NCBI GenBank assembly: GCA_902773665.1
Contig: CACYFF010000007.1
Span: forward strand, 1 to 64,000
DNA: 64,000 bases
DNA from: an uncultured Eubacteriales bacterium
Lineage (GTDB): Bacteria > Bacillota > Clostridia > Peptostreptococcales > Anaerovoracaceae
Reading direction: 5' to 3'
Program-made: the position numbers and the translations under genes
The notes under the pieces: model-generated
The model's input: only the letters and a program-made list of their open reading frames with translations
Told to the model about the DNA's origin: nothing
Database searches by the model: none
In this document: in pieces, positions 15,732 through 33,118 of the stretch
Layout: every line of letters begins with the position of its first letter
How positions within the stretch are numbered: position 1 is the stretch's first letter

Positions 15732-15769
15732 AAAAAATCCCTGAAGCCGTAAACTAACAGCTTCAGGGA
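15732..15769 (-). terminator. T-box attenuator terminator
   Basis: TCCCTGAAGC and GCTTCAGGGA (15760-15769 and 15738-15747) form a 10-bp stem followed, on the minus strand, by six T's. It lies between the T-box sequence and the LeuA-like start and would compete with the antiterminator. Confidence 0.85.
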
Positions 15770-16012
15770 CGAAATTGCACATTCCGCGGTACCACCCTGA
15801 TTCCTCATAGAAAAGAGGCACCTCTCGGGCTCCATCAAGCCCATGGCCGGTAACGGGGCCTACCGGGTCCAACTACTTGCAGCCGTTCGCGGGACCTGCT
15901 CTGGAGTCAGATGTCTGTGACCCTCGGTACCGGCTCGCACCACCCGCCGGCTCTCTGAAACGCTCCTGTCACGACAATTCTCCGTCGTCGCATTTGTGTT
16001 CTTTAAACAAAA
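15738..16012 (-). promoter_or_regulatory. T-box riboswitch leader, probably tRNA-Leu (CUG specifier)
   Basis: The minus strand carries the T-box core AGGGTGGTACCGCGG (about 15784-15799), which pairs with the tRNA acceptor end, preceded by a Stem I with CAGAGAGCCGG...GGTG...AGCCGG as in classical leaders. In Stem I the triplet CTG is followed by A and then nine bases ending in AGC, the spacing found in known specifier loops such as glyQS. That makes leucine (CUG) the likely specifier; the overlapping ATC (Ile) is a weaker reading. A terminator follows. Uncharged tRNA-Leu should switch on the whole downstream operon. Confidence 0.88.
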
Positions 16013-17590: not shown

Positions 17591-17729
17591 AAAAAACAGA
17601 AAGAGAAGGCATTAAAGCCCGGGAAATCCCGGGATGTACAGGGCCGTACAGGAACCGGCTGCCTGCGAAGCGCTGAATTGGTTCCTGCCGGGTCCGCCGC
17701 AGGCGCAAGGGCGTTCTCTCTCTGTTTTT
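17591..17729 (-). ncRNA. Candidate structured RNA upstream of the reverse transcriptase
   Basis: On the minus strand the 5' arm AAAAACAGAGAGAGAACGC (17729-17711) can pair with the 3' arm at 17610-17592 over about 19 bases, with one G-U and one C-C mismatch. Between them lie hairpins in series: CGCC/GGCG, CAGGAACC/GGTTCCTG (8 bp perfect), TGTAC/GTACA and CCCGGG/CCCGGG. The layout, arm1-hairpins-arm2-RBS-RT on one strand, is that of a retron msr-msd or a DRT template RNA. The branching G or the template cannot be assigned from sequence alone. Confidence 0.5.
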
Positions 17730-29351: not shown

Positions 29352-30275
29352 CTATTTCCAAAGGTCCGCAGGGTAAAGTCCCTCGTCCTTCTTTGCCTTC
29401 ATGGCTGCCACGATGGCCGGGCGGTCCTCTTTATAGGTCACGCCGTACCACTTCTCCGGGCAGTCCAGCACCGCCACGTGGGCCTTGCCTTCTTCGATCA
29501 GATGGCTCACGGTGACCGGCAGCAGATATTCGCCCTTGATGGGATTTTCCTTCAGGATGCGCTCCAGTTCCGGCTTCAGGCGGGCCTTGAGTTCGCCCAT
29601 AAAGCTTTCGGTGAACCCGAACAGGTTCATGGAGACGGGGGTGCCTTCCACCACGTCGGTCCAGGTAGCACCGTCGTCTTCGGTAAACTGGATCTTATCG
29701 CCGTTGCGCTGGATCTTCAGCCGCTCGTCGATGCCGGTCAGCTTGCCGTTTTCGTCCACGCGGCACACGCCTCTCGCTACGGAACCGTTCTCCGTCAGGG
29801 TGTTTTCGATGCGATAGGCGGCCATGCAGTAGTCGTAGACCTCGCCGTCCTGGGCCTTGCTCAGGTAATCGTACATGATGCGAAATGCTTCGGGACCGTA
29901 ATAATCGTCGGCGTTGATGACGGCGAAGGGACCGTCGATGATGTCCCGGGCAGCCAGAATAGCGTGGCTGGTGCCCCAGGGCTTGACCCGTTCCTCAGGG
30001 ATCGCAAGACCCTCGGGAATGTCGTCCAGTTCCTGGAACGCGTAGCGGATATCCATGCCGCGCGCAGCGCCCCGTTCCATCACGGCCTTAAAGTCATCCT
30101 CGATCGCGTGCTTAATGATGCAGACCGCGGTCTCGAAGCCCGCCCGTCTGGCGTCGTACAGGGAGAAATCGATGATGAGTTCGCCGTTGGGACCGATGGG
30201 ATCCATCTGCTTGAGCCCGCCGTAGCGGCTGCCCATTCCGGCGGCCATGACCACTAAAATCGGTTTTTTATTCAT
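29352..30275 (-). CDS. Sugar-phosphate nucleotidyltransferase-like protein
   Basis: A 307-residue GT-A-type nucleotidyltransferase: KPILVVMAAGMGSRYGGLKQ is the nucleotide-binding G-x-G-x-R loop, FAVINADDYYG the metal Asp pair. It resembles the NTP-transferase group with cytidylyl- or uridylyl-sugar products but lacks a clear assignment. The start at 30275 has GAAGG upstream; an ATG 11 codons earlier has no site and reaches toward the divergent phosphatase promoter. First gene of the M42 operon, an unexpected partner for peptidases. Confidence 0.8.
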   Translation of the reverse strand: MNKKPILVVMAAGMGSRYGGLKQMDPIGPNGELIIDFSLYDARRAGFETAVCIIKHAIEDDFKAVMERGAARGMDIRYAFQELDDIPEGLAIPEERVKPWGTSHAILAARDIIDGPFAVINADDYYGPEAFRIMYDYLSKAQDGEVYDYCMAAYRIENTLTENGSVARGVCRVDENGKLTGIDERLKIQRNGDKIQFTEDDGATWTDVVEGTPVSMNLFGFTESFMGELKARLKPELERILKENPIKGEYLLPVTVSHLIEEGKAHVAVLDCPEKWYGVTYKEDRPAIVAAMKAKKDEGLYPADLWK

Positions 30276-30314
30276 ATTTCGACCTTCTTTCTTCGAATTA
30301 ACGTCCACATTCTA

Positions 30315-30323
30315 TGGTATACT
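30315..30323 (+). promoter_or_regulatory. Extended -10 promoter for the PAP2 gene
   Basis: TG-G-TATACT with -10 at 30318-30323. The ATG of the phosphatase gene lies 8 bases after it, so transcription would start at or next to the ATG (leaderless mRNA). Confidence 0.5.
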
Positions 30324-30330
30324 ACAAAGT

Positions 30331-31044
30331 ATGGAAAATCAAACGAACTACACGAAAAAAATCATCCTCGTCCTGGCGTTCTACGCAGCGTTCGCGCTCA
30401 TCGCCTGGACCGTCGTAAGCGGCGTTGCTTACGGCTTCGACGCCCCGGTGCAGGAATTCATCCTCGGCCTGAGAAACGGCGTGCTGAGCGCCCTGCTGGT
30501 GCCCTTCGCCTACTCCGGCAACTGGTTCTGCGTGGTGCCGATCTGCTTAATCCTGCTTCTGCTGCCAAAGACGCGGTGGAGCTTCGGGATCCCGGTCACT
30601 TCTTCGGTCCTCGTAGCGCAGGTGTTCTACAATGTCCTCAAGCGGATCTTCCAGCGGGAGCGCCCGGACTGGTCGCTGCACCTGGTCAAAGAGCACGGTT
30701 TCTCGTTCCCTTCGGGTCACTCCATCACGAGCTTTATGCTGTTCGCGATGCTGGCGGTGCTCATCCTCTATTATTACGCCAACAAGGGCAAGAGCCTTCC
30801 GGTCTATAAAAAGAAGCCCCGGCCTGCCGGAGCTTACTTTAAGACAAAGAAAGGCGCCTATACCGCCGCCTGGCTCTGCCTCTTCTATGTCGTGCTGATG
30901 GGGTTCACGCGGGTCTACGTCGGTGTGCACTGGCCCACGGACGTGCTGGGCAGCTGGTGCCTCGCCGTCGCCAACATGACCTGGCTTACCCACATCTTCC
31001 TGGGGCGCAGGAAAGATCAGTCGAACAATCTGGTGGAAAAGTAG
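30331..31044 (+). CDS. PAP2-family membrane phosphatase
   Basis: A 237-residue integral membrane lipid phosphatase, about six helices. The three PAP2 motifs are present: KRIFQRERP (C1), PSGH (C2) and RVYVGVHWPTDVLG (C3 with the catalytic His). Likely substrates are undecaprenyl-pyrophosphate or phosphatidate/phosphatidylglycerophosphate at the outer face. Between C1 and C3 there is a basic, Lys-rich insertion (KKKPRPAGAYFKTKKG). The ATG at 30331 is chosen because an extended -10 lies just before it; there is no ribosome site, hence probably leaderless. Its 3' end overlaps the convergent cysK by 28 bases. Confidence 0.85.
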   Translation: MENQTNYTKKIILVLAFYAAFALIAWTVVSGVAYGFDAPVQEFILGLRNGVLSALLVPFAYSGNWFCVVPICLILLLLPKTRWSFGIPVTSSVLVAQVFYNVLKRIFQRERPDWSLHLVKEHGFSFPSGHSITSFMLFAMLAVLILYYYANKGKSLPVYKKKPRPAGAYFKTKKGAYTAAWLCLFYVVLMGFTRVYVGVHWPTDVLGSWCLAVANMTWLTHIFLGRRKDQSNNLVEK

Positions 31045-31946
31045 CGCATGCCGCTGTCCGCGAACAGCGTCGCGATGGTCTTTCCTTCGTTTTCCGGCCG
31101 CCGTGCGAGTTCCACGGCGGCTTTTAAATAGGCGCCGGAGGAGATGCCCGCCAGGATGCCTTCCGTGCGGGTGAGCAGCTTCGCGTAGGCAAGCGCATCT
31201 TCGTCGCTCACCGTCATCAGTTCGTCCACCAGGGAGATGTCCATCACGTCGGGGATGAGCCCGTCACCGATGCCCTGGATCTCGTGGGGCCGGGAGACGT
31301 TGCCCGCCAGGATCGCCGCGTTTTCCGGCTCCATGGCCGCGATGCGGATGGAGGGTTTGTGCTCCTTTAAATAGCGGCCGATGCCGGTGATGGTGCCGCC
31401 GGTCCCCATGCCCGCTACGAACCAGTCGATGTTGCCGTTCGTGTCTTCGAACAACTCGCGGCCCGTGGTCTCGTAGTGGATCCGGGGGTTGGCCGGATTA
31501 ACGAACTGCCCGGCTTCGATGGCGCCGGAGATGGTCTCCGCCAGTTCCTTGGCCTTGGCGATGGCTGCAGGAACGCTGCCTTCTGCAGGGGTCAGCACCA
31601 GTTCGCCGCCGTAGGCGCGGATCAGCTTTTTACGCTCCTCCGACATGTCCTCGGGCATTACGATGATCACCCGGTAGCCCCGGACCGTGCCCAGCGCCGT
31701 TAAAGCGATGCCGGTGTTGCCGGAGGTGGGCTCTACGATGGTGCCGCCGGGCTTCAGCCGGCCGGAGCGTTCCGCCTCCTCGATCATAGCCTTGGCGATG
31801 CGGTCCTTCGTTGACCCGGCAGGGTTGGGATACTCCAGTTTGGCGACGATATCCGCCTTCAGATCCAGCGCTTTGCGGATGCGGTCCAGCCGCAGCGTGG
31901 GGGTATTTCCGATCAGTTGTTCGATGCCTGTATAAAGTCCTCTCAT
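31017..31946 (-). CDS. cysK: Cysteine synthase (O-acetylserine sulfhydrylase)
   Basis: A 309-residue PLP enzyme making L-cysteine from O-acetylserine and sulfide. Motifs: LIGNTPTLRL, the Schiff-base Lys47 in NPAGSTKDR, the substrate loop PTSGNTGIAL, the phosphate-binding GMGTGGTITGIG and GISSGAYLKAA. AGGAGG precedes the ATG. No cysE is nearby. Upstream lies a full attenuator: promoter, cysteine-rich leader peptide and terminator, so expression should rise when charged tRNA-Cys is short. Confidence 0.93.
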   Translation of the reverse strand: MRGLYTGIEQLIGNTPTLRLDRIRKALDLKADIVAKLEYPNPAGSTKDRIAKAMIEEAERSGRLKPGGTIVEPTSGNTGIALTALGTVRGYRVIIVMPEDMSEERKKLIRAYGGELVLTPAEGSVPAAIAKAKELAETISGAIEAGQFVNPANPRIHYETTGRELFEDTNGNIDWFVAGMGTGGTITGIGRYLKEHKPSIRIAAMEPENAAILAGNVSRPHEIQGIGDGLIPDVMDISLVDELMTVSDEDALAYAKLLTRTEGILAGISSGAYLKAAVELARRPENEGKTIATLFADSGMRYFSTRLFD

Positions 31947-31981
31947 TGGTTTGTCCTCCTGAAATGCTTATCGATGCAAAA

Positions 31982-32007
31982 GAAAAAGGGAAGCCCGCAG
32001 GCTTCCC
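31982..32007 (-). terminator. Attenuator terminator of cysK
   Basis: GGGAAGCC (31988-31995) pairs with GGCTTCCC (32000-32007) around a 4-base loop; on the minus strand five T's follow. It stands between the leader peptide and cysK and therefore must be regulated or leaky. Confidence 0.85.
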
Positions 32008-32041
32008 ATGGTGATTTGACGATCTTGGTCCCGGAATGGGG

Positions 32042-32131
32042 TCAACATGAAGAAAGCGCAGCGAAACAAGGCGTATGGCTTGCCATACACAAACACAGAC
32101 AGGTGCAGTTTGCTGCGTAAAAATTCTTCAA
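32042..32131 (-). CDS. Cysteine-rich leader peptide of cysK (29 residues)
   Basis: A TTG start with AAAGGAG seven bases upstream, 36 bases after a consensus -10. The peptide begins MKNFYAANCTCLCLCMASHT and has six cysteines in 29 residues, four of them in the alternating run CTCLCLC; it ends in SSC and TGA. A hairpin GTATGG/CCATAC lies within the coding part after the Cys run. This is the classical form of an amino-acid leader peptide: ribosomes stalling at Cys codons would change the fold of the RNA before the terminator. Function by attenuation is inferred from layout. Confidence 0.8.
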   Translation of the reverse strand: MKNFYAANCTCLCLCMASHTPCFAALSSC

Positions 32132-32161
32132 ATTCGTTCTCCTTTTAAAAAATACTGTATC

Positions 32162-32190
32162 AGTATATTGGGTTCGCCGCAGTTTGTCAA
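32162..32190 (-). promoter_or_regulatory. Promoter of the cysK leader
   Basis: -35 TTGACA (32185-32190), 17-base spacer, -10 TATACT (32162-32167) on the minus strand: near-perfect consensus, as usual for attenuated operons. Confidence 0.85.
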
Positions 32191-32275
32191 GCAGGTTGCC
32201 TGTGCGGCGAAAATTCTTTTCCACTCTAGCGGAGGAGGCGGTTTTCTGGTTTAATAGGAGGGTAGGAGTTTATGT

Positions 32276-33118
32276 ATGAAAACAGTCGCAGCGATCAACG
32301 ATATCTGCGGATTCGGAAAATGCTCCCTGGTGGCCGACATTTCCGTGCTCGGCGCCATGGGCATCCAGGTCTGCCCTCTGCCCACCGGAATCTATACGGC
32401 ACAGACCGTCTATCCGCAGCACAAAAATAAGAGCAACACGGACATGATCGACGCCTTTACGGAGAATTGGGCCGAAATGGGGGCGTCCTTCGACGGGATC
32501 ATCACAGGATTTCTGCTGGACCCGGTACAGGCCCGCAAGGTGCAGCATTTCGTTAAGACGTTCCACAAGAGCGGCACCCTCTTGCTGGTGGATCCAGTGA
32601 TGGGGGATGAAGGGGTCACCTACGCCAACTATTCCGGGGAGCTGCACGAGATCATCGCACAGCTCGCGGAAGAGGCGGACATCTTGACGCCGAATCTGGG
32701 TGAGCTGTTCCTGCTGGCGGGCGAGACCATCGAGCGGTCGGCGCCGGAACAGGATGAAGAGATGGTCGCGCACGCGGCGCGTTTGGCGAAAACACTTCTG
32801 AACAAGCCCGGCAAGATCGTGGCCGTTACCGGCATCCGGCTGCAGGATGCGGAGGGCGAGCTGCTGGGCAACCTGCTGGTGACCCAAGAGCAGACAGAAC
32901 TCTACGCGATCCGGCCCTGCGGCGGCTATTTTTCCGGCACGGGCGACCTGTTCGCAGCAGCGCTGCTGGGCGGCATCCTGAAGGGGAAAAAGCCCTTCGA
33001 TGCCTTAACGCTGGCGGCGGACTTCCTGAAGGAAGCTGCACGTTCTGCGACAGAGCGGGGCGCCGATCCCAGAGGCGGCAGCGATTTCGAGCAGCACCTT
33101 CACATGCTGGTGGAGTAA
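32276..33118 (+). CDS. Pyridoxamine/pyridoxal kinase (PfkB family)
   Basis: A 280-residue ribokinase-fold kinase that phosphorylates B6 vitamers. It begins with INDICGFGKCSL (substrate loop), then VCPLPTGIYTAQTVYP, LLVDPVMGDEG, ILTPNLGELFLLAG and the anion-hole loop CGGYFSGTGDLFAAALLGG. The PdxK/PdxY-type layout with VDPVMGD supports B6 rather than sugar. The ATG at 32276 has TAGGAG upstream. PLP enzymes are common in the window (cysK, dpaL, PatB-type, racemase), so a salvage kinase fits. Confidence 0.85.
   Translation: MKTVAAINDICGFGKCSLVADISVLGAMGIQVCPLPTGIYTAQTVYPQHKNKSNTDMIDAFTENWAEMGASFDGIITGFLLDPVQARKVQHFVKTFHKSGTLLLVDPVMGDEGVTYANYSGELHEIIAQLAEEADILTPNLGELFLLAGETIERSAPEQDEEMVAHAARLAKTLLNKPGKIVAVTGIRLQDAEGELLGNLLVTQEQTELYAIRPCGGYFSGTGDLFAAALLGGILKGKKPFDALTLAADFLKEAARSATERGADPRGGSDFEQHLHMLVE

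Follow-up and report, generated by a model that had tools for sequence, protein, structure and literature searches.

How transcription of a cysteine synthase gene is adjusted to the supply of cysteine is the question raised by the cysK locus of an uncultured gut bacterium of the Eubacteriales (Anaerovoracaceae), where a short open reading frame rich in Cys codons and an intrinsic terminator precede the gene. The locus (L001 in our set) lies in the window, the 64,000 nucleotide stretch analyzed here. A sequence-only reading had proposed that cysteine controls cysK by attenuation. This proposal is supported by the conservation of the Cys codons, of the ORF, of the terminator and of an alternative RNA structure, whereas the antiterminator named at that time did not hold. 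We conclude that transcription of cysK is very probably (at roughly 0.85) controlled by this leader as a ribosome-mediated attenuator, with charged tRNA-Cys as the signal; the response to cysteine itself is what we infer.

Layout of the cysK leader region

Promoter, leader ORF, terminator and cysK follow each other on the minus strand at workable spacing (Table 1). The promoter described before is borne out, with a near-consensus sequence, and a scan of positions 31500-32600 returned no promoter-like site besides it and none between the terminator and cysK. Transcription would start at this site. A perfect palindrome overlaps the promoter; its arms are identical and its centre is variable in three species (L001, L002, L003), while it was not seen in L101, L005 and L183. 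It may be a candidate repressor site or operator.

The leader ORF was likewise correctly recognized, with its TTG start, its ribosome site and a 29-residue peptide containing CTCLCLC. This peptide, MKNFYAANCTCLCLCMASHTPCFAALSSC, would be translated from a message in which six of the 29 codons encode Cys (codons 9, 11, 13, 15, 22 and 29). The Cys codons thus match the amino acid made via the downstream gene, whose identity as cysK was confirmed with TIGR01139. Between leader and gene lies the predicted perfect terminator, GGGAAGCC-TGCG-GGCTTCCC followed by TTTTTCTTTT, which begins 34 nt past the leader stop codon and forms 8 pairs (-14.1 kcal/mol). The ribosome site of cysK, AGGAGG, is found at 31960-31955. 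The gene diverging from the leader promoter has pyridoxamine kinase as its best NCBIfam match, at 188 bits and under the cut-off of 231. At the other side, the 3' end of cysK (31017-31044) overlaps a convergent phosphatase-like ORF (30247-31044, plus strand) by 28 bases.

Table 1. Positions of the leader elements and related features, in window coordinates unless a locus is named
Feature	Position	Strand	Basis or remark
Promoter TTGACA-17-TATACT	32162..32190	-	11 of 12 consensus matches; region alignable in L002 and L003
Palindrome ATACT-N5-AGTAT over the -10/+1 region	32152..32166	-	Sequence
Shine-Dalgarno AGGAG (within AAGGAG), 5' of the leader TTG	32139..32143	-	Sequence
Leader ORF, TTG start, 29 codons, stop TGA	32042..32131	-	Translation; orthologous leaders in relatives
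Region 1, outer-stem 5' arm CGCAGCAA	32110..32117	-	Just 5' of the Cys codons, beneath a ribosome stalled there
Control codons Cys 9, 11, 13, 15	32087..32107	-	Conservation in the leader alignment
Inner hairpin GUGUAUGG-CAAG-CCAUACGC	32071..32090	-	Where the Cys cluster ends; pairing in 95.8% of cells (six leaders)
Outer-stem 3' arm UCGCUGCG, partner of region 1	32057..32064	-	91.7% of cells paired in six leaders
Region 2, antiterminator 5' arm GCUUUC..CAUG	32046..32057	-	Folding prediction; a ribosome that has reached the stop codon would cover it
Region 3, antiterminator 3' arm CAUGGGAAGC	32001..32010	-	Folding prediction; overlaps the terminator 5' arm
Intrinsic terminator (regions 3:4), 8-bp stem 32007-31988 plus U-tract	31978..32007	-	Sequence
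cysK, cysteine synthase A (regulated gene)	31017..31946	-	TIGR01139, 382 bits (cut-off 351)
T-box leader	15762-15997	-	106 bits
Second uORF	L112 1032+, L113 1063+, L114 1067+, L117 1037+, L121 about 1056+, L135 1019+	+	
Second uORF	L139 1073+, L148 987+, L155 989+, L163 555+	+	
Second uORF, divergent form	L132 2341+	+	Before cysK

Conservation of the leader in relatives

Orthologous leaders precede cysK in RGIG8458 (98% cysK identity), RGIG1565 (91%), RGIG3678 (74%) and G007 (66%). A covariance model built from five leaders and run against 349 genomes added a sixth, L183, from another genus of the family (G374; E 6.4e-13). With this model 26 of the 349 genomes gave a match at E <=0.1; the weak matches between 0.001 and 0.1 are probably mostly chance, with L198 as an exception on inspection. 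The six leaders aligned were those of the window, L099 (/L002), L100 (/L003), L101, L005 and L183.

Leader ORF, TTG start and AGGAG are retained in the relatives, TTG being the start codon in five of the six. In the peptide alignment M1, N8, C11, C13, C15 and L26 are invariant, and C9 is present in five of six sequences. All six Cys codons are shared unchanged by the window, L002 and L003. Between the window and RGIG8458 (L002), 82 of 90 bases are the same in the ORF and 20 of 20 in the terminator, compared to 21 of 34 in the spacer; with L003 the terminator is again identical (20/20) and the preceding spacer is not (20/33). A comparison of the Cys codons in relatives was the test that the sequence-only reading had set for its own refutation, and attenuation was not refuted by it. 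One locus of the same cysK clade, L004, has a candidate ORF with only two Cys codons, at its end.

A covarying hairpin encloses the Cys codons

Inside the ORF, an outer stem and an inner hairpin enclose the Cys cluster. We assessed this 1:2 hairpin on the six leaders and also on five sequences. In the six leaders 93.8% of 96 cells were paired, a fraction that is biased towards the hairpin because the structure was drawn from the same sequences. The stronger part of the support is the double-sided changes, which were seen in 10 cells; four of the eight pairs of the inner hairpin show changes on both sides. The covariation score was 0.458, compared to 0.303 +/- 0.041 for shuffles, of which none of 500 reached as high a value, and slid registers gave 0.054-0.183. 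The covariation argues for a 1:2 hairpin that would serve as anti-antiterminator.

A ribosome-gated antiterminator is predicted

The sequence-only reading had named CCCAT, just after the leader stop, and ATGGG as antiterminator arms. They are complementary in the window, but the pairing is not conserved: the two nearest relatives carry TCCAT/ACGGG and CCCTT/GACGGG, and we rejected this candidate. When a ribosome was placed on the Cys codons and the RNA 3' of it was folded without the terminator 3' arm, GCUUUC together with CAUG at the end of the ORF paired with CAUGGGAAGC. GCUUUC (with CAUG) is therefore the likely antiterminator partner in this folding model.

In order to include the position of the ribosome, the mRNA that it covers was masked in the folding, and we took the probability that the terminator arm pairs with part of the ORF. 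For the window this value fell from 0.86, when the ribosome was placed at Cys 15, to 0.11, when it was placed at the stop codon. In the stalled state 13 of 14 loci (L004 left out) gave 0.56-0.89, with shuffle means of 0.10-0.59; at L054 the value was 0.00 with the ribosome at the last Cys codon. Under a stricter rule, in which the mean over all Cys codons was used and pairing to any upstream base was counted, the window reached 0.80 vs 0.62 (p 0.089). From 20 leaders (L004 and L106 left out) we took 12 representatives, and across these the stalled state exceeded the stop state (Wilcoxon p 0.002), and the observed values exceeded those of dinucleotide shuffles (Wilcoxon p 0.003, Fisher p 1.5e-4). 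At L026, L132 and L054 the pairing was no better than in shuffles under this rule. Single-sequence duplex tests were mostly uninformative and mostly no better than shuffles, with p <0.02 in only 4 of 14 loci. Without a modelled ribosome the arm still paired at 0.43 in the window and at up to 0.81 elsewhere, and basal termination by the 1:2 hairpin alone is therefore not well predicted. Folding thus predicts an exclusive, ribosome-gated antiterminator over the terminator 5' arm, while the shuffle tests at single loci are weak.

Taken together, these elements would work as follows. As RNA polymerase produces a leader of about 175 nt, a ribosome would move along the 29-codon ORF. With ample Cys-tRNA the ribosome would reach the stop codon and mask region 2, leaving the terminator free to form and to halt transcription ahead of cysK. 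With scarce Cys-tRNA it would stall at Cys codons 9-15, which would open the outer stem 1:2 and the inner hairpin; the freed region 2 could then pair with the terminator 5' arm, and polymerase would continue into cysK.

Riboswitch and T-box searches

Rfam gave no match at the window leader, T-box (RF00230) included. A search of 15 loci at E up to 1, in which a Cys T-box and a SAM riboswitch were sought, returned four weak matches and no leader family, and 59 cysK upstream regions (four of them leader-bearing) gave two tRNAs and no leader family at the gathering threshold. Weak T-boxes could be missed in this way because two of the three T-box matches of the own genome score under that threshold. 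None of the three lies at the leaders, and the two weaker ones are outside the window. We take the genes behind them to be 2-isopropylmalate synthase-like (the one in the window), serS-like and ABC-transporter-like. Elsewhere, an RT-5 RNA (RF03026, 91.9 bits) was seen at 17604-17708 (minus strand) of the window, and a molybdenum/tungsten cofactor riboswitch (RF01055, 70 bits) at L269 2254-2390 (minus strand), near the second cysK.

Cys leaders before other sulfur genes

We surveyed 167 unique cysK upstream regions (L099, L100 and L116 dropped as duplicates) for mini-ORFs with at least 4 Cys within twelve residues. Loci had been fetched around cysK, cysS and cysE, and the sample of relatives is not random. 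Such a mini-ORF was found in 16 of the 167 regions and was followed by a terminator in 14 (L001, L002, L003, L005, L006, L017, L026, L027, L031, L038, L048, L054, L101 and L128). For mini-ORFs rich in other residues the terminator share was 0-29%, Thr and Met excepted (Leu 9/55, Ser 6/43, Arg 5/50, Thr 5/9, Met 3/3), and all three Met-rich ones with a terminator are also on the Cys list. Across the scanned loci plus the window, a terminator follows 14 of the 21 mini-ORFs that are rich in Cys and have a Shine-Dalgarno sequence, compared to 110 of 1619 for all mini-ORFs (Fisher p 1.5e-12). Five of these 14 are mutually homologous, and one, which in L029 lies where a cysK gene ends, is probably chance.

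These counts also bear on a constitutive leader, in which a Cys ORF present by chance is combined with an ordinary terminator of fixed partial read-through, or in which a repressor at the promoter palindrome acts alone. The perfect palindrome in three species and the 151 of 167 cysK upstream regions without such a leader speak for it; Cys codons and terminator being conserved above the spacer, the covarying hairpin, and the co-occurrence of Cys-rich ORF and terminator speak against it. Moreover, an attenuator may operate next to a repressor; in Listeria this is the case for Rli60 and CodY, according to the accessible part of PMC5864092. We regard a constitutive or repressor-only leader as improbable. 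Near the promoters of the leaderless cysK upstream regions L016, L018, L023, L024, L029 and L030 we noted by eye ATATG/CATAT-type repeats, which we assume are perhaps a CymR-like site.

In the own genome, a sample of 389.5 kb (16 stretches of 20 kb, the stretch of the second cysK and the window) held five Cys-rich mini-ORFs with a Shine-Dalgarno sequence. Only two of them have a terminator, and these are the leaders of the two cysK genes. The second cysK, which is followed by cysE, has the leader METAARMVCMCCICAGIFRGSCFI and an 11-bp terminator. No leader was found at the own cysS, where the upstream region reads as coding. Within the family, leader and terminator precede cysK in the genus of the window and in six further genera (G051, G054, G055, G025, G010 and G048); layout is the same and leader sequences are different at the second cysK and at the cysK of the six other sampled genera. 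In other families of the order, none of nine cysK upstream regions carried a leader as defined above. Scans of the fetched loci, one of which skipped L099, L100, L116, L179-L183, L001 and all loci below 1000 bases (L183 was covered in another), added a weaker leader before cysK at L132. They also added Met/Cys-rich leaders before metY-cysK operons at L113, L130 and L148 (Pseudoflavonifractor sp. Marseille-P3106), and the L198 leader (G025) before a lipoprotein gene that resembles a transporter binding protein; the identities of the metY genes and of this transporter are presumed from sequence.

The diversity of these peptides is relevant to a sensor role of the nascent peptide, which would bind a metal or respond to thiol or redox state and arrest the ribosome, with the RNA switch downstream. 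CxCxCxC motifs can bind metals, and a peptide in a copper-regulated uORF system is reportedly Cys-based. That a copper-regulated uORF system exists is described in the accessible text of PMC9426467. In our leaders, however, the Cys spacing varies (CTCLCLC, CCCCC, CCMCGCC, CMCCIC) while the downstream genes remain Cys/Met genes, and we consider a peptide sensor quite improbable, a shade more so than a constitutive leader. Least probable of all is a small functional Cys-rich protein or peptide precursor as the product of the ORF, with the terminator as its 3' end and another promoter for cysK: short Cys-rich peptides such as SCIFF do exist (we take one ORF in L253 to be a probable SCIFF), but two leader peptides gave no hit to any NCBIfam model up to E 10, the peptides diverge between genera outside the Cys codons, the covariation of the codons in the hairpin is that of paired RNA, no second promoter-like site lies between terminator and cysK, and the layout recurs before unrelated sulfur operons.

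A cysK tree of 79 rows, which included 45 of the named leaderless loci, needs five changes of the leader state, and well-supported branches force two; leaders were therefore gained or lost several times. L006 and the leader type of the window fall within a supported set of eight rows, seven with a leader; the exception is placed as L004, with only two Cys codons. Cys leaders before cysK seem to have arisen several times among the relatives.

Mixed Met/Cys runs (MMMGMCM, MMMEMCM, MSMMMCMC) were seen in the leaders L113 850+, L130 860+ and L198 1516+, before sulfur-amino-acid genes. Counted over 16 leaders (L002, L003, L031, L130 and L004 left out), 45 of 519 residues are Met. A joint sensing of Met and Cys by the mixed leaders is possible.

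In metY-cysK operons a second short ORF is conserved 34-90 nt 5' of metY (Table 1); its peptide ends in (F/Y)RFGRMCRC or a close variant. The Arg codon CGA is retained with few exceptions. The second-type uORFs tested and two of the leader peptides had no NCBIfam match, and no paper on FRFGRM or RFGRMC was found in the open-access literature searched. Its DNA pattern occurred in none of 391 genomes of the class of the window; the second uORF is therefore not a feature of this class. It could be another leader peptide, perhaps with translational action.

Comparison with known systems

Ribosome-mediated transcription attenuators of the trp type are known from trpL, hisL and ilvL of enterics. The window leader resembles them in the leader ORF with clustered control codons, the mutually exclusive pairings 1:2, 2:3 and 3:4 (predicted here), the intrinsic terminator and the biosynthetic gene downstream. 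It differs in that it would sense Cys and in that the host belongs to the Bacillota. The kind of mechanism is thus already known; new would be the sensing of Cys before cysK in this Bacillota lineage and the apparent repeated origin. The Firmicutes are the textbook group for T-boxes. With somewhat less than even confidence we suggest that a broad range of uncultured Bacillota use leader peptides and not Cys T-boxes to read the Cys supply throughout a regulon (cysK, cysK-cysE, metY-cysK and a transporter). The leaders would have originated repeatedly with unrelated sequences, some would read Met and Cys (MMMGMCM, MSMMMCMC), and at metY operons they could stand in tandem with the second uORF ending in FRFGRMCRC. 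Repeated origin of attenuators could be studied in Cys leaders because Cys codons are rare and easily seen.

The following comparisons refer to the accessible parts of the papers cited. That cysteine attenuation is rarely reported outside actinobacteria, as the sequence-only reading stated, is a fair description, yet there is a prediction from Rhodobacterales (PMC8632094) and a tested attenuator for branched-chain amino acids in Listeria (PMC5864092). In the former, uORFC-8-2 before cysS, Cys codons of the uORF lie in a stem, a U run fits an intrinsic terminator, and attenuation by Cys-tRNA is predicted (PMC8632094). By description the window leader is set apart from uORFC-8-2: that uORF has two tandem Cys codons (14-15) before cysS in alphaproteobacteria, whereas the leaders described here have four to six clustered codons, at positions 9, 11, 13 and 15 in the window, before cysK in Bacillota. 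In actinobacteria, leader ORFs with runs of Cys codons precede the cys operons of Mycobacterium and cbs of P. acnes and B. longum (PMC1262725; a further reference on such Cys-rich leaders is Canestrari 2020, cited in PMC13236596). As far as the available text goes, these leaders have no conserved or obvious terminator hairpin, and Rho-dependent or translational control was proposed for them (PMC1262725), in contrast to the intrinsic terminator of the window leader. Within the Firmicutes, Rli60 before ilv-leu of Listeria is a tested leader-peptide transcription attenuator (PMC5864092), and a His leader before hisS*/hisZ in bacilli is predicted to act by leader-peptide attenuation (PMC2965389); the mode is the same as proposed here, while amino acids and genes are others. 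A Cys leader-peptide attenuator in Firmicutes was not found in the open-access literature, subscription papers being mostly outside this scope.

A further counterpart is the Cys T-box before cysK-cysE of Clostridium perfringens, which acts by premature termination (PMC2940859). Genes and signal, the charging of tRNA-Cys, are the same as in our proposal, but there the RNA reads the tRNA directly. Some other clostridia are described in the accessible text as having no such T-box before cysK, and the authors considered other mechanisms possible (PMC2940859). Such an alternative would be provided by a sensor that relies on Cys codons and is coupled to an intrinsic terminator in front of cysK, and it would be a case in which the sensor at one and the same gene has been exchanged.
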